Assembly (NCBI RefSeq): GCF_001561995.1
Contig: NZ_LLWC01000003.1
Location: 27,917-91,916 of the forward strand
Source of the DNA: Polycladidibacter hongkongensis
Lineage (GTDB): Bacteria > Pseudomonadota > Alphaproteobacteria > Rhizobiales > Stappiaceae
Reading direction: 5' to 3'
Length of the DNA stretch: 64,000 bases
Part shown: in pieces, positions 44,095 to 53,424 of the stretch
Numbering within the stretch: the stretch's first letter is position 1
Layout of the letters: each line of letters starts with the position of its first letter
Notes under the pieces: model-generated
Seen by the model: the letters and a program-made list of their open reading frames with translations, nothing else
Told to the model about the DNA's origin: nothing
The model's database searches: none
Translations under genes and position numbers: made by a program

Positions 44095-44122
44095 AAATTC
44101 CATAATCCAAATTATGCGCAAT
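44095..44122. other. Left prophage attachment site, dif-like (attL)
   Basis: The 16-bp core CATAATCCAAATTATG (44101-44116) recurs at the right end. The 28-bp window has two 11-bp arms around a 6-bp centre (44106-44111), the geometry of Xer sites. On the minus strand the prophage-side arm reads ATTGCGCATAA, 9 of 11 identical with the XerC arm of E. coli dif. Confidence 0.75.
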
Positions 44123-44233
44123 ATAAAATTGATTTAATATAATGAATTCAGCCACTTATAGTTAACGCAATGCTTACACACGCACATTACCGAGGTTAAC
44201 CCTCAAATGTAAAATGCAATTAGGGGTTGTGTT

Positions 44234-44632
44234 GTGTACTTACCTTTTAAAGATGAGCTGATAGAAAAAGAAATCGACGTGCTTGTTAAGCATCTAGAGT
44301 GGGAATTGATTTTACTTAAAAAAATGGCTGTGGAGAAAAAACGGTCCCGCCTACGGCGCAATGATCTCGAAAAGGTGTTTGCAAGTCTCCCCCTTGATGT
44401 TAACCCCCAGAAGTTCGCAGAAATCAACGGCCTAAGTATCGATCTAGTAAACTACTGGTATTTGTGTAAGCGCAGGAGCGCCGAATACATAAGCCGCGAA
44501 AAACGGAATCGCGAAATCATGCTGATGATGCGACGCGGCGCGACAAATCGGCAAATCGCGAACCGCTTTGACCTGCATCCAAGCTCTGTTAGCCGGATTA
44601 TTCGCAAATATCGGGAAAGCGTGCGGGTATAA
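44234..44632 (+). CDS. Prophage helix-turn-helix protein
   Basis: 132 residues from a GTG at 44234 with AGGGG upstream. The C-terminal 45 residues (MLMMRRGATNRQIANRFDLHPSSVSRIIRKY) are a clear helix-turn-helix of the resolvase/Trp-repressor style; the N-terminal half is charged and helical. It stands alone on the plus strand at the left end of the prophage, facing away from attL, so it may regulate the late operon or help recombination as an accessory factor. Neither is shown. Confidence 0.7.
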   Translation: MYLPFKDELIEKEIDVLVKHLEWELILLKKMAVEKKRSRLRRNDLEKVFASLPLDVNPQKFAEINGLSIDLVNYWYLCKRRSAEYISREKRNREIMLMMRRGATNRQIANRFDLHPSSVSRIIRKYRESVRV

Positions 44633-44666
44633 AAAAAGCCCTTGTCGATCACACAGCGACAAGGGC
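44631..44666 (-). terminator. Terminator ending the prophage minus-strand transcription
   Basis: GCCCTTGTCG (44638-44647) pairs with CGACAAGGGC (44657-44666); on the minus strand a run of seven T follows. The stem lies partly inside the last codons of the 97-residue gene, whose stop is at 44649-44651. Confidence 0.88.
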
Positions 44667-44942
44667 AAGAAGTAAGACCGCCAGCAAGCTAATCAAAAGT
44701 GACGGTACACTGCGGATTCTAGCAGGCTGGTTGCCTGTGTCCAGACCCGACCAACCGGAAAGCCACAGCTGAGTTAAATCAGGTCCTGACGGCGCAGGGC
44801 TTGCCGTGGGCAGCAGATTAAGCGGTTGCCCTCCCCCTGCAGCGCCCTTTTTTTTGCACTCCTTCATGCGGGCATAGCCCAGCATGTCAGGATGAGGTTC
44901 CCAGCCGCATGGCGCGCGGATTGTGCCTGCATCAAGTGCCAT
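44649..44942 (-). CDS. Prophage small membrane protein, 97 residues
   Basis: AGGGG lies upstream of the ATG at 44942. The protein is glycine/proline-rich in the middle and ends in one hydrophobic helix (SLLISLLAVLLLALVAV) that runs to the last residue. No known family recognised. It is separated from the rest of the late genes by a terminator at 45081-45109, so it has its own promoter or receives read-through. Confidence 0.6.
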   Translation of the reverse strand: MALDAGTIRAPCGWEPHPDMLGYARMKECKKKGAAGGGQPLNLLPTASPAPSGPDLTQLWLSGWSGLDTGNQPARIRSVPSLLISLLAVLLLALVAV

Positions 44943-45080
44943 TTTTTCCCCTAGTCAAAAAGAATGATTTTGCGCGGATCCACCCCTATGAGGGTTTGAT
45001 AAGCGCAACCAGGTTGCAATCCTATTCTATAAAAGCCTGTGCCAGGAGCGACTATTTTAGAATTTCATTCCCAGCGATGG

Positions 45081-45109
45081 ATAAAGAAAAGCCCCGCAAC
45101 AACGGGGCT
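45081..45109 (-). terminator. Terminator of the prophage late operon
   Basis: AGCCCCG (45090-45096) pairs with CGGGGCT (45103-45109), followed on the minus strand by TTTCTTTAT. Confidence 0.8.
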
Positions 45110-45114
45110 CAGTG

Positions 45115-45258
45115 CTAGCGCTTCTTGGTGGCGAACCAGTAGACGCCAAGGCCTGCGACCACAGCAAACAGGAACATTTTGTTATTCTGTTTTTGCTGCG
45201 TGGTTTCGCCGCCCATCCAATCAACGGCCCAATCAGGCAGGTAATCATAGATGTTCAA
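45115..45258 (-). CDS. Prophage small membrane protein, 47 residues, TTG start
   Basis: The TTG at 45256-45258 follows directly on the TAA of the upstream gene, with GGAGGG 6 bases before it, so it is translated by re-initiation. The product begins NIYDYLPDWAVDWMGG and has one helix (MFLFAVVAGLGVYWFA) before a basic end ATKKR, the layout of a virion-membrane protein. Too short for most gene callers. Confidence 0.7.
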   Translation of the reverse strand: MNIYDYLPDWAVDWMGGETTQQKQNNKMFLFAVVAGLGVYWFATKKR

Positions 45259-45477
45259 TTAGTTGCCCTCCTTCAGCAGCATTGCAGCCAGTCCGGAAAG
45301 CGTCAGGGCGCTGCCGGTAGCCAGATCGGATGTGGTGAGCGATGTTGCCAGTTGCTGGACGGTGTGCGGATCCACAACGCCGAACAACTGAGCCAAGCCA
45401 AGGCCAACCAGCGGCAGGCCTGCAAATGTAGAGGGCTCTTGCATACGGCGTACAAGCCCTGTGAACAGTGAAACCAT
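45259..45477 (-). CDS. Prophage small hydrophobic protein, 72 residues
   Basis: Two weakly hydrophobic stretches (TFAGLPLVGLGLAQLFGVV and ATGSALTLSGLAAMLL). Its ATG overlaps the previous stop (TAATG) and its own stop abuts the next start, so it is part of a chain of coupled tiny genes. Unrecognised; a membrane-associated virion protein is the likely role. Confidence 0.7.
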   Translation of the reverse strand: MVSLFTGLVRRMQEPSTFAGLPLVGLGLAQLFGVVDPHTVQQLATSLTTSDLATGSALTLSGLAAMLLKEGN

Positions 45478-45638
45478 TATTTTTGTTCCTTCAGGTTTTC
45501 GATTTGAACCGCGTTGATTTTGATCTCTGCGCGGTTGTCGGCAATTTCTCGGCTGTTGTTGACCAGTTGCAGCGCTGCCCAGCCCAGCAGTGCGGCGGTG
45601 AGTGTCGAGGCGATCGAGTTGAAATCAAGCTTTGCCAT
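45477..45638 (-). CDS. Prophage small protein, 53 residues
   Basis: ATG at 45638, stop at 45477-45479 overlapping the next ATG by one base. It begins MAKLDFNSIASTLTAALLGWAA with one hydrophobic helix, then a charged amphipathic tail rich in N, E and K. The layout resembles small holin- or spanin-like proteins, and it sits next to the lysin, but identity is unproven. Confidence 0.65.
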   Translation of the reverse strand: MAKLDFNSIASTLTAALLGWAALQLVNNSREIADNRAEIKINAVQIENLKEQK

Positions 45639-45795
45639 TTAGCCACTTCCCCCCGAAATAAACGGCGATCCCTGCAACGCTGGCATATGCCAGCGGCGCG
45701 CTTTTCTGTGCCGCTTCGCCGGTTTTGTGCGCGGCCACTGCCACGGCCAGCGCATCAACTGCCACCAGTAGGCCCACAGCAATGACCAGCGGCAT
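45625..45795 (-). CDS. Prophage small membrane protein, 56 residues
   Basis: Starts at the ATG 45793-45795, directly after the lysin stop, and overlaps the next gene by 14 bp. Two hydrophobic stretches (LVIAVGLLVAVDALAVAVAA and APLAYASVAGIAVYF) around a short polar turn suggest a two-helix membrane protein; its place right behind the lysin makes a holin the first guess. Confidence 0.65.
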   Translation of the reverse strand: MPLVIAVGLLVAVDALAVAVAAHKTGEAAQKSAPLAYASVAGIAVYFGGKWLNGKA

Positions 45796-46530
45796 TTAGG
45801 CAATCCCCGCGTAAAACATATGCACGCCATATTCCGCCGTTTTGCGCGCGTTGGGGCTGGCGGCAATCCAGCGCGGCTGCGCAATATAGTTTGCGTAATA
45901 GTGGGTTGCTCCGCCTGTGTTGTCCGGCAATTGCCCTGCGGTGGCTCTGCGGGCCACAATCAGGCAGTCCTCAAACAGCGCATTGCCCTGATTGGGTTGC
46001 AGGTTCTCAATGCGCGCGCGCATAGGGTCGCTAGCGTTCCAGCAGGAGAACTGCCACGGCTGCAAGCACACGCTGGCAACGGAGTTCGGCCAACGCCGTG
46101 AGCGTACACGGTTCAAGATGACGGAGGCCACGGCTTGCTTGCCTTGATACTTCTCGCGGTTGGCTTCGCCGTACAGGGTACGGGCCAGCGTTAGGGTGTC
46201 ATAGTCCACCCCCGCCCCTTGCTGCGGTGTATGCAGTACAGGAGCGGGGAACTGGACGACTGGTGCGCCGGTTGCTTCCGGCTTGTTATTATCGTTCACG
46301 TTGTTTCCCCAGTCGAAAAGATTGGATAGGCTCTGCGTAAATCCGGAAAGCCAGTTTTCAGGAGCGGCAGCCGGTTGCCAGCTTCCGCCTTGGTGTGTGG
46401 GTGCCTGTTGCGCCTGCGGCGCTTGTGGCGTCGTTGTGGTGGTGGTTGTGATACTGCCCTTGCTGCGCACAACCTGCCATGCAGCGGCTCCGCCTGCCCC
46501 GACAATGATGAGCGCAGCTAGGGCCTTCAT
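45796..46530 (-). CDS. Prophage SleB-type cell wall hydrolase with membrane anchor
   Basis: 244 residues. An N-terminal helix (LAALIIVGAGGAAAWQVV), a T/Q/P-rich linker, then the Hydrolase_2/SleB domain at about 108-244 (LARTLYGEANREKYQGKQAVASVILNRV, with the catalytic Glu near 120; GATHYYANY). Such muralytic enzymes can serve for entry, as virion proteins of membrane phages, or for lysis. Its start overlaps the upstream gene by 4 bp. Confidence 0.83.
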   Translation of the reverse strand: MKALAALIIVGAGGAAAWQVVRSKGSITTTTTTTPQAPQAQQAPTHQGGSWQPAAAPENWLSGFTQSLSNLFDWGNNVNDNNKPEATGAPVVQFPAPVLHTPQQGAGVDYDTLTLARTLYGEANREKYQGKQAVASVILNRVRSRRWPNSVASVCLQPWQFSCWNASDPMRARIENLQPNQGNALFEDCLIVARRATAGQLPDNTGGATHYYANYIAQPRWIAASPNARKTAEYGVHMFYAGIA

Positions 46531-46838
46531 GTGGTCACCGCTGGCAGTGCCTCAGCATAAATGCTAACCGAGTGTTCAACTGAGCAAGTGTATTTGAGGG
46601 CTTTCCCTGCTGACACTATGAAATCGGAAAACTCGTATTCCCCACCGCCAGTTAATTCCTGATTCATTTGCAGTGGTACGCCGTGCAATTGTAAGGTCGC
46701 GCCAGACTGTTTTTTTACCTTGAAATGAAGCTTGCGGACGATAAAGCCATCATTCTTATCAGGCTGAATGAGATTGAACCAATCATGACGTCCGCCGCTA
46801 GACTTTAAGATTACACTATGTGCGGGAAGACTTGTCAT
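46527..46838 (-). CDS. Prophage putative virion protein, 103 residues
   Basis: All-beta in appearance, with no membrane helix or signal. Coupled at both ends by 4-bp overlaps (46835-46838 and 46527-46530). In content and place it resembles a minor capsid or spike protein; I recognise no family. Confidence 0.6.
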   Translation of the reverse strand: MTSLPAHSVILKSSGGRHDWFNLIQPDKNDGFIVRKLHFKVKKQSGATLQLHGVPLQMNQELTGGGEYEFSDFIVSAGKALKYTCSVEHSVSIYAEALPAVTT

Positions 46839-47371
46839 TCGCTAACCTCAAATACGACCAAGCGACCTCTGTTGTTTCCAACTTCCAGTGCACTAAAGGC
46901 ATCAGTTGCGTTGGTTTCAAATGAGTCTAATGAACGCAGCCAAATGCCTGAATTCAAAACTATGGATGAGGCCGACAGGTTTTGAAACCGAATGGAGCGG
47001 CGTTTCGGGTTATAATCGGCAACCTCCATTTCTCCGTTTACCTCGTACACCCGCACATCACCGTTTTTGGGCTTGCTTTCCAGCATCAATCCGCCGCCGG
47101 TGATGTTCAATCGGTCGTCGGTGAGATCACTGTCAGAAACAACCAGAGTTGCAGTGATTTCCGCATCCGTGTTGTTCATCAAGGTGAAGCGGCTGAACGC
47201 TTCATTAGCGCGTACAGAAAGCCCCTTTTCAAAGGTGATACCGCCCTGCCCGTTTTCAAAGGCAATTTTGAACGGCGCTGTGGAAGCCGTACAGCGTACG
47301 GCATAACCGGACGCGGCCCGCTCAATGACAGCCCCAGCGGGTAGAACAATTTCAAACTCGTTGACCTGCAT
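46835..47371 (-). CDS. Prophage putative virion protein, 178 residues
   Basis: Beta-rich, starting MQVNEFEIVLPAGAVIERAA; strand-turn-strand text throughout and no helix-forming membrane segment. The composition is that of a jelly-roll or spike protein. Between structural genes of the late operon. No close family recognised; could be the penton or spike protein of this virus. Confidence 0.6.
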   Translation of the reverse strand: MQVNEFEIVLPAGAVIERAASGYAVRCTASTAPFKIAFENGQGGITFEKGLSVRANEAFSRFTLMNNTDAEITATLVVSDSDLTDDRLNITGGGLMLESKPKNGDVRVYEVNGEMEVADYNPKRRSIRFQNLSASSIVLNSGIWLRSLDSFETNATDAFSALEVGNNRGRLVVFEVSE

Positions 47372-47372
47372 G

Positions 47373-47741
47373 TTAATTCCTTAACAGATACGCGATTGTC
47401 AGGACGCTAACGCCCATCAATAGTGCGTTGTTGCGCGATTTGGTGTTGCTTGGTGCCTCCACTGGCGAGCCCTGCGCCACTGCGGCGGTGGTTGCGCTTT
47501 GCCGGTCCACAATATCCATGGCGCGGGTCACCAGCTGCCCTGCCCCGTTGATTGCGTTGCTGGTAAAATCCAGCAGCTCTTGCGGGGCTTGCTCGATGTA
47601 GATATCTCCATTGCCCCCTTGCGTGGTGGCAACGAAAGAACCCGCTTCGGCAGCAATCTTGTTGTCGGTGTTGCTCGTGCTCTGGTGCGAGCTGCTACTG
47701 CTGGAACTATCGCCGCCCAAGTGAAAACACCCCGCTGGCAA
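47373..47741 (-). CDS. Prophage membrane protein with serine-rich start, 122 residues
   Basis: The first start is a TTG at 47741; a second TTG at 47720, which begins MGGDSSSSSSS, is equally likely and would reduce the overlap with the upstream gene. A serine run is followed by a polar region and a C-terminal membrane helix (NALLMGVSVLTIAYLLRN). Likely virion membrane protein. Confidence 0.6.
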   Translation of the reverse strand: MPAGCFHLGGDSSSSSSSHQSTSNTDNKIAAEAGSFVATTQGGNGDIYIEQAPQELLDFTSNAINGAGQLVTRAMDIVDRQSATTAAVAQGSPVEAPSNTKSRNNALLMGVSVLTIAYLLRN

Positions 47742-48135
47742 GTGGTAGCGCCATCAGTGTTGAAATGGCCTTGAAATTCAACCGCTCAAGGGCGGCCTTC
47801 AGCGTGGTTCTGGAAACACCAACGGTAATGCGGTTGCAGTCGTTTTCCTCGGCAATGCGCATAAACGCATCGCGAAGCGGCTCCAGCCATTTGCCACCAT
47901 TGGCGCGGCTGACATTGGCAGCCATGACAGCCAATTCGCGGCCATGGGCAAAGCTGCGGAACTCATAGGCAGCGGCCACCTGAAGAACGCCCTCGCTATC
48001 GCGCAAGGTGATAGCGAAAACGCCTTCAAGCCGGTCCTTGCTCATATAATCCGGATCATGCTTGCGCGTGCTTTCGGCCAAATATTCCAGTGTGTCGCCT
48101 TCGACGCGTTCCGCCAGATTTACAAACAATTTCAA
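47707..48135 (-). CDS. Prophage GNAT-like protein, 142 residues
   Basis: EGVFAITLRDSEGVLQVAAAYEFR, then GRELAVMAANVSRANGGKWLEPLRDAFMRIAEENDCNRITVGV and RTTLKAALERLNFKAISTLM follow the strand order of a GNAT acetyltransferase. The acetyl-CoA loop is not clear, so it may be a non-catalytic relative. It lies among structural genes, where similar proteins of unknown role are found in other small phages. Confidence 0.5.
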   Translation of the reverse strand: MKLFVNLAERVEGDTLEYLAESTRKHDPDYMSKDRLEGVFAITLRDSEGVLQVAAAYEFRSFAHGRELAVMAANVSRANGGKWLEPLRDAFMRIAEENDCNRITVGVSRTTLKAALERLNFKAISTLMALPLASGVFSLGRR

Positions 48136-48359
48136 AACAGTTTTTTCCCTTTACTCAGGTACAAAAGCGCCGCGCCTGCGGCAATTATCGCCCAGATCGG
48201 CAGGCCCATGATGGTTCCCTGCTGCTGCTGGCGTCCAAATGGATCCCAGTTGCCTGCGTTCCAATTGGCGTTATAGCCAACATTCTGGCGGGCTCCGGAT
48301 ATCGCGGGCCCTGTGCTCAAGGCCAGTTGCGGCATGGGGCTTGGTGCTGGTGCTGTCAT
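48132..48359 (-). CDS. Prophage small membrane protein, 75 residues
   Basis: A proline/asparagine/glutamine-rich N-terminal 48 residues and a single C-terminal helix (IMGLPIWAIIAAGAALLYL) with a basic end. Coupled by ATGA overlaps on both sides. Typical of virion membrane proteins of PM2-like phages; no family recognised. Confidence 0.65.
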   Translation of the reverse strand: MTAPAPSPMPQLALSTGPAISGARQNVGYNANWNAGNWDPFGRQQQQGTIMGLPIWAIIAAGAALLYLSKGKKLF

Positions 48360-48706
48360 TTTTTCATCACCATCAACAGCGCAACCAGCGCCACTGCCCC
48401 AATTCCCATAAGCGGCCCGATTGGCAATTTCGCCGGCGTCTGGGTCACCGTGGTGACGGGTACCGGCTGTGGTGCCTGTGGCTGCGGGTCAACAGTGTTG
48501 CCGAAGCCGTTGAAGGCGTTCAGCACATTGCCAAGGGTGTTGGCTGCGCCGTTGAGAAAGCCGTTGACGCTGTCCCAAAAACCGCCGCCGCCCCCTGTGG
48601 GGGAGCCGCCACTTGTCGGCGCTGGCAGCGTGTTGCCACCGCCTCCGGCAGGTGAAGCAGTTTCCCACCCCATGCCGCCCCAGCTCCCCCCGTTTGGCCC
48701 TCCCAT
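48356..48706 (-). CDS. Prophage glycine-rich membrane protein
   Basis: 116 residues from the ATG at 48706, rich in G, N and P with a C-terminal helix (IGPLMGIGAVALVALLMVM). That ATG has no ribosome site. The frame stays open upstream to an ATT at 48785-48787, which lies 5 bases behind a perfect AGGAGG in the end of the capsid gene; starting there adds 27 residues (ISIDEFVNSRFAQSG...). A rare ATT start is therefore worth considering. Confidence 0.65.
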   Translation of the reverse strand: MGGPNGGSWGGMGWETASPAGGGGNTLPAPTSGGSPTGGGGGFWDSVNGFLNGAANTLGNVLNAFNGFGNTVDPQPQAPQPVPVTTVTQTPAKLPIGPLMGIGAVALVALLMVMKK

Positions 48707-48782
48707 TTGATTGTATGGGATGAGCAGATCCCCAGACCCTGAACCGCTTTGAGCAAACCGCGAATTTACAAATTCGTCGATG

Positions 48783-49637
48783 CTAATTGCGGCCTCCTAC
48801 GTAGCTATAAACGGCGTAGAACGGGGTTGCCTTGGTCATGGTGAATTCAAACTGGGTTGGCACGCGGCGCGGCACACCATTGGTCAACACCTGATTGCCC
48901 AGATTGAGGCTCTGGCGCTGTTCCTTGTCCATGCGCAAAGCAAAGACCTGATCAGGAACCGTCGCGCCATAGGCTTTCAGTGGCTCGTCATTGATATGAC
49001 GGGGGATGTCGACAATGGTTTCGCCATCACGATCCAGCTTAATGCGGGCAATGTCGCCCTTGGCTCCCTCGAAGCAATAAAGCGCCTGTAGGTTGCCAAT
49101 GGCCGGAACGTCCGGTTCTGTGTGAATGCCAGTGGCAGAAACCGGAATTTGGCGCCTGATGATCTTCCGGATAAAGCCCAGATCAGGGCGACCAGTCGCA
49201 CCGCCTACCGCCATGCGGTCGTAATCCGCATAGGCTTCTAGGCGCGGGCTTTTCACATCGTCAGCCAGTGTGAGCTCGATGTTGAAATCGGTGATGCCAG
49301 TTCCCTTCAGGCTCCACGCGGTTTGGTCCTGTCCGCTGGTGGATTCGCGCCATGGCTCAGAGAAGCAAAGCGGGATAATCCCGTCCTGAATTGGATACCC
49401 ATTAAGGTCCAGAATAGCGAACAGCTCTTTAGCTGTTAGCTCCCATTGTGCGCGCCCGTCCAGCAGCACACGAATAAGCTTGATCTTCTCTTCCATCACG
49501 GCGCGTTTTGCCAATGCACCGCCTGCCTCAAACGAGATTTTTACCGCGTGATAGCGCCGGTCTGTCGGCAGGTCTACGGCGGCAATCTGCCCCGCCACAA
49601 CGTTCTGAAATTCTTTTAGTTTTCGGTATGAACGCAA
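48783..49637 (-). CDS. Prophage double jelly-roll major capsid protein, PM2 P2-like
   Basis: 284 residues, beta-rich throughout. As I recall the PM2 P2 sequence (269 residues), the N-terminus matches in pattern: MRSY..L....NVVAG, then a hydrophobic LP-strand, and RVLLDGR at about 70, with YSYVGGRN at the C-terminus against a similar ending in P2. The pairing with a P9-like ATPase in a 9-kb element strengthens this. It should form the trimeric capsomers around the internal membrane. A structure or profile comparison is needed to confirm. Confidence 0.75.
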   Translation of the reverse strand: MRSYRKLKEFQNVVAGQIAAVDLPTDRRYHAVKISFEAGGALAKRAVMEEKIKLIRVLLDGRAQWELTAKELFAILDLNGYPIQDGIIPLCFSEPWRESTSGQDQTAWSLKGTGITDFNIELTLADDVKSPRLEAYADYDRMAVGGATGRPDLGFIRKIIRRQIPVSATGIHTEPDVPAIGNLQALYCFEGAKGDIARIKLDRDGETIVDIPRHINDEPLKAYGATVPDQVFALRMDKEQRQSLNLGNQVLTNGVPRRVPTQFEFTMTKATPFYAVYSYVGGRN

Positions 49638-49640
49638 CGT

Positions 49641-49769
49641 TTAAACCCCAAAGCCCTGAGTGATTTTCTGCGCGAATGCGTTGTCCTTGAACGCATGGAG
49701 CGCCCAACCCGCAATGAGCACACCCACGGTGCAGCCCAAAATCAGCTTAATGTCACCTTTGCTAAGCAT
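49641..49769 (-). CDS. Prophage small membrane protein, 42 residues
   Basis: ATG at 49767-49769 with AAGGA upstream, stop just before the capsid gene start. One helix (IKLILGCTVGVLIAGWAL) followed by an amphipathic tail (HAFKDNAFAQKITQGFGV). PM2 places such small proteins next to P2. Confidence 0.65.
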   Translation of the reverse strand: MLSKGDIKLILGCTVGVLIAGWALHAFKDNAFAQKITQGFGV

Positions 49770-49786
49770 TGTTATTGTTTTTTTCC

Positions 49787-49882
49787 TTAGTTTGGTTTTC
49801 GAAATGCCGGTTTTACTACAAACTCAAATAAGCTCATTGCAATGATACTTGCAGCAACCGAGTAGATGATTGTTTTCGGCAT
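49787..49882 (-). CDS. Prophage possible membrane peptide, 31 residues
   Basis: ATG at 49880-49882; one helix (TIIYSVAASIIAMSLFEFVV) and a basic tail (KPAFRKPN). No clear ribosome site, so it is less certain than its neighbours. First possible gene after the terminator at 49918-49944. Confidence 0.45.
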   Translation of the reverse strand: MPKTIIYSVAASIIAMSLFEFVVKPAFRKPN

Positions 49883-49917
49883 GGGCAAAGAGTGGCGTTT
49901 TTAGCTGGAATTGCAAC

Positions 49918-49944
49918 AAAAAACCCGCCATAAACGGCGGGTTT
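49918..49944 (-). terminator. Terminator between prophage early and late genes
   Basis: AAACCCGCC (49921-49929) pairs with GGCGGGTTT (49936-49944), followed by a T-rich stretch on the minus strand. It splits the rep-to-ATPase unit from the structural unit, which therefore needs a promoter or antitermination near 49.9 kb. Confidence 0.82.
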
Positions 49945-49984
49945 CTGCGGGTTCATACGGTGTACACTCTGTATAAGTATTGCC

Positions 49985-50641
49985 TCAGGGATTTAACTTG
50001 AATTTCCCCGTTTTTGTGGTTTTGCCCCTCTTTATTGCGCCGTTTTCTAGCAACAGGAAGTTAAATGGCTGCATCTGGTTTAGCTCCTCTTTGTACTTCG
50101 GGCCGATGGTCTGCAAGATTTGCTGCTTGTCGACATGAGCGGCCAACGGGAACACATATTCTCTGGCGCAATTCCCGCGGAACGTGGTCGATATCTGAGC
50201 GGGTCGCTGAGTGATCGCAATGCAGCCTAGACCACGGTGGCGCCCCTGCAAGATGAGCTGTTGCATGCCGGTGATATGGCTCTTTTGGGCTTGGTTCGGA
50301 ATAGCTAGATTTGCCTCTTCCACCACCAGCAGCATTTGCTTTTTGTGGCGTGGGTAATCAGCATTTGCCAGCCATAGGAACTTGGTTAGCCGGTCCAAAT
50401 TCTCCACATGATCGCCCGCGCTCACATAGGAGATTTTAAAGCCGCCCCGCCAGCGCTTTTTAACTGCGCCAGCCAGCTCTTCCAGTGTACGAACACGCGT
50501 CCACCCTGTGCCGCCATATTCCGCCAGCGGATCAAACACAATCACGCGGGCGCCGCTTGGCAATCCCCGAAGCCGTGCCTTTGTGATAGTGCTTTTGCCG
50601 CTGCCTCGGCGACCATAGACAGCCTCAAGCTCAGCCTGCAT
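49985..50641 (-). CDS. Prophage genome-packaging ATPase (PM2 P9 / FtsK-HerA class)
   Basis: 218 residues. Walker A GRRGSGKST at 10-18, Walker B QMLLVVEEAN near 105-114, and a sensor-like CIAITQRPAQISTTFRGNC near 155. Small size and the position upstream of a double jelly-roll capsid gene fit the packaging motors of membrane-containing phages (PRD1 P9, PM2 P9), which pump DNA into preformed capsids. Overlaps the upstream gene by 11 bp. Confidence 0.85.
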   Translation of the reverse strand: MQAELEAVYGRRGSGKSTITKARLRGLPSGARVIVFDPLAEYGGTGWTRVRTLEELAGAVKKRWRGGFKISYVSAGDHVENLDRLTKFLWLANADYPRHKKQMLLVVEEANLAIPNQAQKSHITGMQQLILQGRHRGLGCIAITQRPAQISTTFRGNCAREYVFPLAAHVDKQQILQTIGPKYKEELNQMQPFNFLLLENGAIKRGKTTKTGKFKLNP

Positions 50642-50954
50642 CGTCTTCCTCTGTGTATCTCAGATCATGCGCGCGTTGCAGCTTGTCAAAAGCGCGTTTT
50701 CTACTGTCACACACCAGTTGGCGGAGCCGCTTCCGTGCCAGATCGGGGCGCGTTGATTCATACAAATCAATAGCTTGCTCAACAATTCGGTCAAAATTGT
50801 CGTATTCCGAGAGGACACCGGCAGCAAAGGCCTCGTTAAAGATTTCATTTTCTTTATGTTGAAACTCTGCGCGCATCTTATCTACATACGCGAACTTGGC
50901 TTCAAGCTGTGCGTGCAAAAACTCATGCATAAGAGTGGAAACTTCAGTCGTCAT
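50631..50954 (-). CDS. Prophage protein of unknown function, 107 residues
   Basis: Mostly alpha-helical and charged, starting MTTEVSTLMHEFLHAQLEAKF; no membrane helix. HEFLHAQLE resembles a zinc HExxH only loosely (HEFLH has the H-E-x-x-H spacing), so a metal role cannot be excluded but is not argued. In the early unit between the 175-residue gene and the ATPase. Confidence 0.55.
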   Translation of the reverse strand: MTTEVSTLMHEFLHAQLEAKFAYVDKMRAEFQHKENEIFNEAFAAGVLSEYDNFDRIVEQAIDLYESTRPDLARKRLRQLVCDSRKRAFDKLQRAHDLRYTEEDDAG

Positions 50955-51482
50955 TTATACCTCCGGATAACTGGCAACCCGTGCTGAGCGGCGTTCGCTC
51001 AGCTCGGCGCTAACCGCAAACATTTTGGGCAGGGCAAACATGGCAATGGCCGAAAGTGCGGCCACGTTCTCCGTTTTTTCCGTAACCATCCAGCGGAACC
51101 AGCTGGACTTTTGCGCCAGCTCGTAAAGCCCTTTGGTGGCCTTGCGGGCTTGATCTTCTTCATGCTCGGCAATTGGCAGGGATTTCAGGCCAGTCAGGCC
51201 GCCAAGCGCCGCAAGGGCAAACTCGATATTGGCGTGAAACGCCTCCGCACTGACCAGTTGGACCTCTGGCGCACTGGCAGGGGCCGCGCCCTCCACCTGC
51301 ATATCAATTCCGGCCTCTTTCGCAGCCTCCTCGATGTCTGGCATGTCCTCGCTTGGGCTGGGCTGTGTCGGCTCGGCAGCTTCAGGAGCAACAGGTGTGT
51401 CGCTAAGCGAAATTTTCTGCAATCCAGTCGTCTCTAACAGGTTGATTTTCAATGGTTTTTTCTTCTTTCTTGGTGTTGTCAT
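50955..51482 (-). CDS. Prophage protein of unknown function, 175 residues
   Basis: A basic start (TTPRKKKKPLKINLL), an acidic proline-rich linker to about 75, then a helical region ending in a hydrophobic helix (NVAALSAIAMFALPKMFAVSAEL, about 138-160). Could be a membrane-associated replication or assembly protein. Overlaps the zinc-ribbon gene by 80 bp, a long overlap in another frame. Confidence 0.55.
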   Translation of the reverse strand: MTTPRKKKKPLKINLLETTGLQKISLSDTPVAPEAAEPTQPSPSEDMPDIEEAAKEAGIDMQVEGAAPASAPEVQLVSAEAFHANIEFALAALGGLTGLKSLPIAEHEEDQARKATKGLYELAQKSSWFRWMVTEKTENVAALSAIAMFALPKMFAVSAELSERRSARVASYPEV

Positions 51483-51693
51483 TGGCCAGTTGCTGGCCCT
51501 CTTTTTGCGCTAGTAACTGCGCTTTGAGCTGCTTGGAACGCCCCTTCCCCATCACCAACTTGGAGCCACAGGAGGGCCGCTCGTCCTCAAAATCGCCGTT
51601 GCACTGGTAGTAAAGCTTGCCGCTCCGGTCCTCGCGCAGCATCACCCGCGATTGACATACAAGGCAGACACTTTCTGCAATATCTTCAGCCAC
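51403..51693 (-). CDS. Prophage zinc-ribbon protein, 96 residues
   Basis: CLVCQSRVMLREDRSGKLYYQC and a later C in PSCGSK give a CxxC...C...C zinc ribbon in the first 45 residues; the rest is charged and disordered-looking. Starts directly after the RepC-like gene stop, so part of the replication unit. Confidence 0.65.
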   Translation of the reverse strand: MAEDIAESVCLVCQSRVMLREDRSGKLYYQCNGDFEDERPSCGSKLVMGKGRSKQLKAQLLAQKEGQQLANDNTKKEEKTIENQPVRDDWIAENFA

Positions 51694-52896
51694 TTACCCT
51701 CTCTTTCTAATGTTTTTCCTGTAAAGCTTGCGTAGCTCGGCCATCAGATCCACCTCTCCGGCCGCAATTTTGCGGCAGTAGGCCCGATAATAGCCGCCCA
51801 TACTGGTGATTGGCGGTGCTGTGCCGCCGTTGGCGCGGTCTGATATGATTTGATAGGCCGCAAAAAACGCCAGAGAAGCCCGCTCAAGGCCAATCAGCTG
51901 AACGCTGGCCCGCCACCCCTCTTCGCTCAATTGCAGCGCGCCACGGTGCATTTCTGCAAGCTCTGGTAGGTCTCGCCAGCTGGTCAGGCCCCCAAAATCC
52001 TCAAAAACAGGGATTGCCCGCTCCAATTCCGTCAGTGAGAGCGGCAGGGCGTCGATTTTTTCCCCGTCCAATTCCTCAAAGCCGCTTTGGCAGGCGTCAG
52101 CCTGCCCCCCTGCAAACTGAGTAATCGCGCAATCAGCGCGATTGCCGCTTGTTACAACGGAGTATTTTAATTCTGTGTTTGTTTCTATGTGCCGGAAGTT
52201 TTTACCGGCTGAGCCGGAAGTTTTTTGTTTTAAATAACTGAAAATGCGCGTTTTTAGCGAAGCGTAGTGTTCAAGGGTCAGGGCGTAGTCAATCCCCGCC
52301 TGTCGCCGGTTCGGCGTGTTGTATTCGTACTCGCAAAAGGTCTGGTAAAGGTCGCTATCTTGGGGCAGCAGCTCCGCTGCCTCTTTGGTGTCAATGCGAA
52401 GCGCCTTAAGCGCTGTCCACTGTTGTTTTTGCCGCTCTTCCTGCGACGCGTTGGCGTTAATGATTGCCTCGTAATCATTAGCCTGCGCCACCATCGGAGT
52501 GAGGTCGAAGCCGTAAGCGTCGACTATCTGGTCTCCCCTGCGCACAGGAAAACGTTTGCGATTGGGCGCGTCCTTGGCCTTTATCAGCCCCAGCTCAATC
52601 AGTTTTGATAGGGTGTTGCGTAAAGCGCGGTCCGTGATGCCAACACGATCACAAAGCCATTCATTCGACGGCCAGACGATTAACGCCCCTTGAACGAGTT
52701 GTTCACCCCAGCTTGCGCTTAGTGTATTAAGTACAGCCCTAGGGGTTGGCTTCAGCGCTAAAGCGATTCCCGCTTTGTGCGCTATGCTCAGCAGCTTTTT
52801 ACGGCTTAGGTCTGTAAAATCGGCGGTTAAATCGGAAAATTGAATACTTTCTTGTTTTAATTTCCGGAAACCGCTTGTTGCTTGATTAGCTTGCAT
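51694..52896 (-). CDS. RepC-family replication initiator of the prophage
   Basis: 400 residues from the ATG at 52896, which has AGGGG upstream; the open frame extends to 52980 but with unlikely residues. The N-terminal half carries the RepC/RP-C text of repABC plasmids: IVWPSNEWL, LIELGLIKAKDAPNRKRFPVRRGDQIVDAYGFDLTP, and the C-terminal half GGYYRAYCRKIAAGEVDL. RepC binds an origin inside its own gene. Here two direct repeats and a dyad sit at 52191-52226, inside the coding region. PM2 itself uses a different, rolling-circle-type initiator. Confidence 0.83.
   Translation of the reverse strand: MQANQATSGFRKLKQESIQFSDLTADFTDLSRKKLLSIAHKAGIALALKPTPRAVLNTLSASWGEQLVQGALIVWPSNEWLCDRVGITDRALRNTLSKLIELGLIKAKDAPNRKRFPVRRGDQIVDAYGFDLTPMVAQANDYEAIINANASQEERQKQQWTALKALRIDTKEAAELLPQDSDLYQTFCEYEYNTPNRRQAGIDYALTLEHYASLKTRIFSYLKQKTSGSAGKNFRHIETNTELKYSVVTSGNRADCAITQFAGGQADACQSGFEELDGEKIDALPLSLTELERAIPVFEDFGGLTSWRDLPELAEMHRGALQLSEEGWRASVQLIGLERASLAFFAAYQIISDRANGGTAPPITSMGGYYRAYCRKIAAGEVDLMAELRKLYRKNIRKRG
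52191..52226. repeat. Direct repeats in the RepC gene, candidate replication origin
   Basis: GCCGGAAGTTTTT occurs at 52191-52203 and again at 52213-52225, two helical turns apart, with the dyad CCGGC-TGA-GCCGG between. The surround is A/T-rich. In repABC plasmids oriV lies in an A/T-rich part of repC. Confidence 0.5.
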
Positions 52897-53072
52897 GTCG
52901 GCCCCTAAGGGGCGGGTTTGCGCCGTGTGTGTAAAAATGGTGGCTCGAACCCGCCCCCTCTGCATTGAGATAGTTATCACTCCTCAAAACATCCATACGG
53001 CCCTTAAAATTGCAAGCAGGTGCCCTGCGTGCTAGTATGATGGCTGTGTGTGTGTTTTACTTTGGTGGCCCA
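52897..53072. promoter_or_regulatory. Divergent control region of the prophage
   Basis: Lies between the RepC-like gene and the plus-strand XRE gene. GCCCC-TAA-GGGGC (52901-52913) is a near-palindrome that covers the RepC ribosome site, and GATA-GT-TATC (52967-52976) is another. This is the lysis/lysogeny control region by position. Confidence 0.45.
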
Positions 53073-53366
53073 ATGAATATTGGAATTTTACTCGAAAAAG
53101 CGCGGCTCGCTGGCGGCTTCTCCAGTAAGAGAAAGCTGGCCTTGGCTGTAGGCGTGGCCAATAATCAAATTGGTTATTACGAGCGCGGAATTCAAATACC
53201 ATCTGACAAAACTATGATGAAACTCAGTGATTTAGCTCATGAGGATACTGGGTATTGGCTGATGGTGGCAGCCTACTTGCGTTCAGACGAAACTGCTCGC
53301 GCTAAATGGGCCTCTATCATTGACCTCTATGTAATGACTAAGCAAAGCGACAGTAAAGCAGCGTGA
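53073..53366 (+). CDS. XRE-type helix-turn-helix protein (DUF3693-like), prophage repressor candidate
   Basis: 97 residues from ATG 53073 (TGGTGG upstream). HTH at about 15-50 (SSKRKLALAVGVANNQIGYYERGIQIPSDKTMMKLSDLA); the tail GYWLMVAAYLRSDETARAKW resembles the DUF3693 proteins found in filamentous and PM2-like phages. Divergent from the RepC gene, like a phage repressor. Confidence 0.75.
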   Translation: MNIGILLEKARLAGGFSSKRKLALAVGVANNQIGYYERGIQIPSDKTMMKLSDLAHEDTGYWLMVAAYLRSDETARAKWASIIDLYVMTKQSDSKAA

Positions 53367-53396
53367 AGCACGAAACGAGAACAAATGAACATGCTT

Positions 53397-53424
53397 TTCT
53401 GACATAATCCAAATTATGAGAGTA
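53397..53424. other. Right prophage attachment site, dif-like (attR)
   Basis: Same 16-bp core CATAATCCAAATTATG at 53403-53418 with different outer bases; the 6-bp centre (53408-53413) is identical with that of attL, as needed for Xer strand exchange. Confidence 0.75.

Follow-up and report, generated by a model that had tools for sequence, protein, structure and literature searches.

What kind of element carries the capsid gene of a tailless, PM2-like phage together with the replication initiator of repABC plasmids? This question is raised by a 9,302-bp unit in a 64,000-nucleotide stretch of Polycladidibacter hongkongensis DNA (the whole of this stretch is called the window here), which lies within positions 44095-53424 and is closed by 16-bp direct repeats at both ends. 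We find that it is a well-bounded prophage of the tailless order Vinavirales, probably intact and complete-looking, and that its RepC is an initiator new to this order within the searches made. An integrated copy is present between dif-like sites. The fuller reading, in which RepC likely stands in place of a Rep_1 initiator and the prophage, once excised from its dif-like repeats, would be copied in a theta-type manner and packaged, is one that we hold with considerable confidence. A helix-turn-helix (HTH) gene on the plus strand stands at either end, with a single long block of minus-strand genes in between. The features on which the argument depends are listed below, with counts of orthologues given out of 13 relatives.

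44095..44122, minus strand: attL, a dif-like hybrid site, reading ATTGCGCATAA-TTTGGA-TTATGGAATTT on the minus strand
45796..46530, minus strand: SleB-type cell wall hydrolase (PF07486, 1.5e-25; 7/13)
48783..49637, minus strand: major capsid protein P2, double jelly roll, 284 residues (from Pfam, predicted fold and PM2 profile)
49985..50641, minus strand: packaging ATPase P9 (phrog_2666, 1.4e-20; 13/13)
51403..51693, minus strand: P14-like zinc-ribbon transcription factor (PM2 P14 profile 92.7%; 11/13)
51694..52896, minus strand: RepC initiator, 400 residues from the ATG at 52896 (RP-C and RP-C_C)
52131..52280, minus strand: candidate replication origin, the lowest-GC 150 nt of repC (41% versus 53%), with a 13-nt repeat
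53073..53366, plus strand: HTH repressor, divergent from repC (HTH_3, 2.7e-7; 9/13)
53397..53424, minus strand: attR, a dif-like site whose 6-bp centre is identical to that of attL

The assignment to Vinavirales is carried by a P2-type double jelly-roll capsid and a P9-type ATPase encoded near the capsid gene. Both capsid domains scored above the Pfam cut-off (P2_N 7.6e-12, P2_C 8.3e-9). The gene starts with TTG, and the N-terminus obtained in this way resembles those of its homologues. An AlphaFold2 model built from 14 sequences (mean predicted local distance difference test score, pLDDT, 87.9; predicted template modelling score, pTM, 0.87) had PM2 P2 as its top match in the PDB (2vvf_A, E 3.8e-21, template modelling scores 0.79/0.83, 20% identity), the next matches being capsids of the double jelly-roll type from PBCV-1, STIV and PRD1-like phages. 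In ten profile pairings with PM2 proteins, P2 reached 99.5%, P9 97.9% and P14 92.7%, and the remaining seven 0.1-14%; the names P1, P3, P7, P8, P10, ORF h and GNAT used below stand for position and orthology among the relatives. A preliminary description of this locus had proposed the P2-like capsid, the P9-like ATPase and a membrane-anchored SleB lysin, and all three were borne out, the capsid fold on a predicted model and the lysin with a single hydrophobic stretch. Its "about ten" tiny membrane proteins, by contrast, came down to six of the ten small open reading frames (ORFs) of the structural module (P7, P3, P8 and the 56-, 72- and 97-residue ORFs; Kyte-Doolittle, cut 1.6). It had further reported neither integrase nor terminase. 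The first part stood, as a Pfam scan of 16 of the 21 ORFs (the other five being shorter than 80 residues) gave no integrase match; the second did not quite, since a PHROG labelled "terminase large subunit" matches the P9 ATPase, a label which the PM2 P9 record bears as well.

P2_N was found in 2/87 genomes of the family, 4/397 of the order and 10/385 of the class, the host's own genome (3.74 Mb in 38 contigs, one capsid match) being counted each time, and a further family search around one genome, G634, added nothing. The nearest capsid, P0002 of a 3.3-Mb contig, is 47% identical. A tblastn search with the capsid retrieved one plasmid record besides seven from Vibrio phages, the latter 22-26% identical. 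Single-sequence scans of viral contigs with the capsid and with RepC returned no relatives, as did a capsid alignment, and a DNA-level search of phage records for near-identity to the element gave no match.

It is the initiator that sets the element apart. Its reading frame (51694-52980) matches RP-C at 8.6e-30 and RP-C_C at 1e-7, the latter exactly at the 32.6-bit cut-off, in agreement with the RepC-family assignment made earlier. The frame is open as far as a GTG at 52980 (428 residues), and the 400-residue form has the length of a database copy (P0008). The predicted structure (pLDDT 84.2) contains a disordered linker at residues 232-283. At the same place, the four nearest relatives with a readable replication gene (L006, L013, L081 and L083) all have Rep_1 above the Pfam cut-off; the capsid tree (27 rows) unites them with the element and with two database proteins at 99/97. 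When a RepC profile was run on 21 other Vinavirales elements, two of which (L035 and L041) end ahead of the replication position, it matched 0 of the remaining 19; the combination of this capsid with RepC, put forward earlier as not known from described corticoviruses or tectiviruses, was absent from all of these. Because Rep_1 is found in all four nearest relatives and RepC in none of the 19 other elements, it is likely that RepC replaced Rep_1 on the branch leading to this element, in an otherwise ordinary prophage resembling those of clade A (see below). Swaps of replication genes in Vinavirales have been published (PMC1950889 and PMC9502842), and no report of RepC in this order was found among the openly licensed papers listed, supplements aside.

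Among farther relatives, Rep_trans was seen below the cut-off in L015, L036, L038 and L040, an HTH_36 winged-helix protein in L016 and a DNA polymerase B in L033, and the replication position of seven others (L017, L018, L019, L023, L034, L037 and L039) had no Pfam match. Compared with the RepC profile, the Gp2 replicase of Rhodobacter phage Jorvik has a winged-helix stretch in common (82%, E 1.1e-5), and the L016 initiator resembles it weakly (13%). Because RepC and Gp2 share this stretch, RepC departs less from the initiators known in Vinavirales than its name implies. Two of these sequences deserve a remark of their own. L016 (1-9486), a contig binned in a Sulfurimonas metagenome-assembled genome and likely misbinned, is an apparent whole, circularly permuted Vinavirales genome; L033 (1681-3474) is a Vinavirales element from a genome of the host's class, with the polymerase as its replication gene.

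One of the nearest relatives is the prophage L006 in genome G003, which belongs to the same genus as the host; the same stretch occurs identically in CANMBS010000017.1 (uncultured Pseudovibrio). Its capsid, ATPase, lysin and GNAT-position protein are 41, 46, 43 and 47% identical to those of the element, it is syntenic with all 21 ORFs except repC and the 107-, 103- and 56-residue ORFs, and it too has dif-like ends. It differs by its Rep_1 rolling-circle initiator and by having no 107-residue ORF. As the genes flanking it are not those beside the element, a relative does exist at another site, and the refuting case set out in the preliminary description, a fixed cluster with no such relatives, does not apply.

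How did the prophage come to lie where it does? The ends given earlier, 44101 and 53418, coincide with the outer limits of two identical 16-bp direct repeats, CATAATCCAAATTATG (44101-44116 and 53403-53418), which have the architecture of dif. The form of dif described for Rhizobiales (PMC2731167) reads like CGCATAA-N6-TTATGGAACTT. A search with the pattern GCATAAN6TTATGGAANTT, allowing at most one mismatch, found it in 14 of the 16 genomes of the genus, and the only match in the host's own genome was attL itself, with no mismatch. (A pattern with an E. coli-like XerD arm matched 3/16 genomes, the host's not among them, and was set aside as the wrong form.) Boundary pairs of dif type were found in 6 of the 16 elements examined (mismatch scores of 0-4, against at least 5 for control patterns in every case); the other ten had no dif-like pair better than the controls, and several of them end at contig ends. 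Among nine sibling dif regions, dif is flanked in six by a 287-residue and a 1088-residue gene, the same two between which the G003 prophage is found. Since they flank dif in six siblings without a prophage (P2_N was absent from all six genomes), this gene order supports an insertion of the G003 prophage at dif. For the element itself, insertion at the chromosomal dif is suggested. The motif GGGNAGGG, which we take to be KOPS, points towards the element from either side (left 5/0, right 0/2, within the element 1/4); its polarity reverses at dif in G010 (6/0, 0/6) and G005 (2/0, 0/4), and in smaller dif regions too, L152 having a single exception on its right. The G003 gene order thus supports integration at dif by XerCD, which we infer to be the recombinase of the element and which has already been proposed for Jorvik and NO16. 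As a separate observation, the dif regions of several siblings (L146-L150 and L152) have two inverted dif copies separated by 0.5-5.3 kb, and that of G010 contains, between its copies, a 338-residue ORF which, by eye, is dehydrogenase-like.

One could also imagine that the element is an immobile, decaying remnant, in which RepC and the orphan genes are chance insertions. Three ORFs (of 56, 103 and 107 residues) indeed have no orthologue in the 13 relatives, the capsid gene depends on a TTG start, and mobility of this insertion could not be demonstrated. Yet the conserved genes are open and keep the order of L006, the 16-bp att cores at both ends are identical, and the TTG start is the very one that gives a homologue-like N-terminus. 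We thus regard decay as an improbable explanation, though the best placed of those competing with a prophage in which RepC serves replication.

The source of RepC bears on a second possibility. A tblastn search of 50,697 phage records with RepC returned two kinds of sequence: 115-122-kb genomes of Rhizobium phages, in ten records of which two are RHEph10, and a pair of faecal "Bacteriophage sp." records. A profile search of viral contigs yielded 36 loci, one of them from RHEph10 (L059), and no P2 capsid was present in the stretches examined of these 36 contigs. The RepC of the large tailed rhizobiophages RHEph10, B1VFA and V1VFA-S is about 30% identical to that of the element over 84-94% of the query, in genomes which, at 115-122 kb, are quite unlike it. 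Two trees, of 84 and 43 rows, place the element's RepC on a long branch together with viral rows, that of RHEph10 included, and apart from all plasmid-taken rows (48 and 22, respectively), at 100/99. The viral rows were collected with a profile containing the element's own RepC, which may favour this grouping, and the plasmid rows were mostly taken by name, their context unchecked. When the element's RepC was constrained to group with RepCs of the Pseudovibrio group or with other RepCs from the database, approximately unbiased (AU) tests were not significant (p 0.149 and 0.134, respectively); a third (p 0.451) is uninformative on the grouping, both of its splits being compatible with one tree. 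A RepC of phage type is therefore the favoured donor, with the AU tests inconclusive. Some further RepC genes were noted in passing. One of the two faecal records (L005, MT837988.1) has, by eye, a ParB-like gene ahead of repC and may be a piece of a repABC plasmid; the other is L004 (MT837541.1). Divergent RP-C proteins in sibling genomes (L115-L118) lie on long contigs, some of them adjoining genes that look mobilisation-like by eye, and perhaps represent a separate type of RepC-bearing element.

The preliminary description had seen in this locus a possible new phage-plasmid lineage, that is, a free low-copy circle maintained by RepC in lysogeny, with integration incidental. This idea draws on RepC being the initiator of repABC plasmids, on the related RepC of the siphophages B1VFA and V1VFA-S, which are reported to be phage-plasmid-like with parA, parB and repC (PMC12509600), and on a P2 capsid gene on a 908-kb Thalassospira plasmid, although there it lies within an apparent inserted element. 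It is not supported by what we see. The element sits inside a contig of 91,916 bases with host genes on both sides, it shares dif-like ends with integrated relatives, and its RepC groups with viral contigs. No match to ParA or ParB (RepA/RepB) turned up among the 16 scanned ORFs of 21, the neighbours of RepC being instead the HTH and P14-like genes, and near-identical DNA was found in none of 72,556 plasmid records. A free-living lysogenic plasmid appears slightly less probable still than a remnant.

Returning to the integrated prophage, we consider that it would be excised, likely through the host's XerCD, and that the resulting circle would be replicated in theta mode from a predicted origin within repC; the copies would then be packaged into a supposedly membrane-lined capsid, and the divergent HTH gene might control repC according to the logic of PM2 P15/P16. 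The model for such replication is plasmid p42d (PMC3155836), whose minimal replicon consists of repC, a promoter and a ribosome site. Its origin lies inside repC, where silent changes in an AT-rich stretch abolish replication, and its RepC is cis-acting and an incompatibility factor. One gene could therefore suffice as a replication module. In the element's repC the lowest-GC 150 nt occupy coding positions 617-766 (the altered stretch of p42d is 658-822) and partly overlap the codons of the disordered linker. They contain a 13-nt repeat whose copies, 22 bp from one another, fall in two reading frames; this repeat was equalled in 1 of 200 shuffles and has no counterpart in p42d, whose repC is described as having no repeats longer than 8 bp. 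There were no exact DnaA boxes, and the three one-mismatch matches all lie outside repC; an Rfam search gave four sub-threshold matches at E<=1, none of them an antisense RNA of repABC type. We propose the AT-rich repeat inside repC as a candidate replication origin. The more ambitious idea, that a tailless membrane phage was turned into a RepC replicon, with initiator and origin united in one gene around the linker-coding stretch and a passage from rolling-circle to theta replication, has in our estimate an even chance of being correct. That RepC should instead serve competition, by excluding or displacing RepC phages or plasmids while another gene replicates the phage, agrees with the incompatibility exerted by RepC in p42d and with three other RP-C matches in the host genome, but is very unlikely, as RepC itself stands at the initiator's position, flanked by the HTH and P14-like genes, and none of the 16 ORFs scanned matched a second initiator.

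Several observations weigh against the reading of a RepC-replicated prophage integrated at dif. Equal AT-richness arose in 57 of 1000 synonymous shuffles of repC, which makes it weak evidence for an origin when taken alone, and the 13-nt repeat was chosen after inspection. The RepC model resembles no solved structure at E<=0.001. At the insertion site, the GGGNAGGG counts are small, and the left one becomes 6/1 with the rest of the contig included; GC skew keeps its sign across the element (0.034 on the left, 0.023 on the right). An empty site was not found, matches to the right flank within the genus being weak and scattered, and the genes flanking the element are absent from the nine sibling dif regions. 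The contig is likely chromosomal, judging by the adjoining NrdE and YdiJ genes, and what uncertainty there is on this point counts on the same side. Finally, the element is known here from sequence alone.

Read from right to left, the genes are the HTH repressor (plus strand), RepC, the P14-like factor, the ORF-h-position gene, the 107-residue orphan and P9; then P7, P2, P3, P8, the GNAT-position gene, P10 and the P1-position gene; and then the 103-residue ORF, the SleB hydrolase, five small ORFs and the second HTH gene (plus strand). The neighbours on the contig are DctP, GNAT, NrdE, YdiJ and arsenite-oxidase-like genes. The features not listed above are as follows.

44234..44632, plus strand: HTH regulator, TR_Z1-like by position (HTH_23, 2.9e-6; 10/13)
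44649..44942, minus strand: 97-residue ORF with one hydrophobic segment (orthologue in L006 alone)
45115..45258, minus strand: 47-residue ORF (orthologues in L006 and L013)
45259..45477, minus strand: 72-residue membrane protein, holin-like by position (11/13)
45477..45638, minus strand: 53-residue ORF (orthologue in L006)
45625..45795, minus strand: 56-residue membrane ORF (0/13)
46527..46838, minus strand: 103-residue ORF, role unassigned (0/13)
46835..47371, minus strand: spike/penton candidate, named by its P1 position (13/13; PM2 P1 profile 1.1%)
47373..47741, minus strand: P10 candidate (10/13; PM2 gp j 14%)
47707..48135, minus strand: GNAT-position protein, 142 residues, named by position (no Pfam match; 47% identity to the L006 orthologue; 4/13)
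48132..48359, minus strand: P8 candidate by position, membrane protein (3/13)
48356..48706, minus strand: P3 candidate by position, membrane protein (2/13)
49641..49769, minus strand: P7 candidate by position, 42-residue membrane protein (12/13)
50631..50954, minus strand: 107-residue orphan overlapping the ATPase start (0/13)
50955..51482, minus strand: ORF h position, assembly-factor candidate (10/13; PM2 gp h 0.4%, that is, no match)

Of the core proteins, P1, P7, P10 and ORF h are thus kept in 10-13 of the 13 relatives and P3 and P8 in 2-3. Matches of the left HTH protein to transposase families are weak and confined to its HTH. The 107-residue gene interrupts an otherwise conserved block of ORF h and ATPase; a database search (6 candidates) retrieved nothing but itself, and its match to the PHROG "partition protein" is weak (E 0.038). 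PADLOC, run on seven proteins, gave no match.

Why might such an exchange matter? By having RepC and not a rolling-circle gene, the element likely copies its DNA differently from its kin, and the syntenic pair of Pseudovibrio-group prophages, one with Rep_1 and the other with RepC, offers a clean natural comparison of a replication swap. As reasons for the frequent swaps in Vinavirales, PMC9502842 proposes escape from defence or plasmid-like incompatibility; that RepC incompatibility has been demonstrated in a plasmid (PMC3155836) bears on this question. If the element is a RepC-replicon phage, it would have an incompatibility system in common with those phages and plasmids in its hosts that carry RepC, and a capsid lineage and plasmid competition would be joined in one testable genome of 9.3 kb. 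In addition, gene-order evidence has been added here for the insertion of such prophages at dif.

Where, then, does the element belong among known phages? With PM2 (Corticoviridae) it shares the capsid fold, the ATPase and the P14-like factor, so that the original label of a PM2-like tailless prophage stands; that of a corticovirus proper does not. PM2 differs in its P12 rolling-circle initiator, its P5 lysin and a remote capsid sequence, the element having RepC and SleB instead, and in the capsid tree PM2 falls outside the 16-row group of the element (99/99). Jorvik (Mestraviridae; PMC10589892 and PMC12451628) likewise has an alphaproteobacterial host, no integrase and a proposed attachment site of XerCD/dif type. 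However, its capsid is remote (E 8e-11) and does not group with that of the element, its lysins are Slt and M15, a type missing from the element, which has SleB, and its ATPase operon lies on the opposite strand. By gene content the element fits the alphaproteobacterial clade A of Vinavirales described in PMC9502842. The prophages of this clade share the P2/P9 core, a SleB hydrolase at the P5 position, which the element has as well, and a GNAT-position gene; some of them also carry a P14-like factor, and exchanges of their replication genes are frequent. The initiators named for clade A in that main text, supplements aside, are Rep_trans, HUH (Rep_1), DnaD-like and PolB, and to these the element described here would add RepC.

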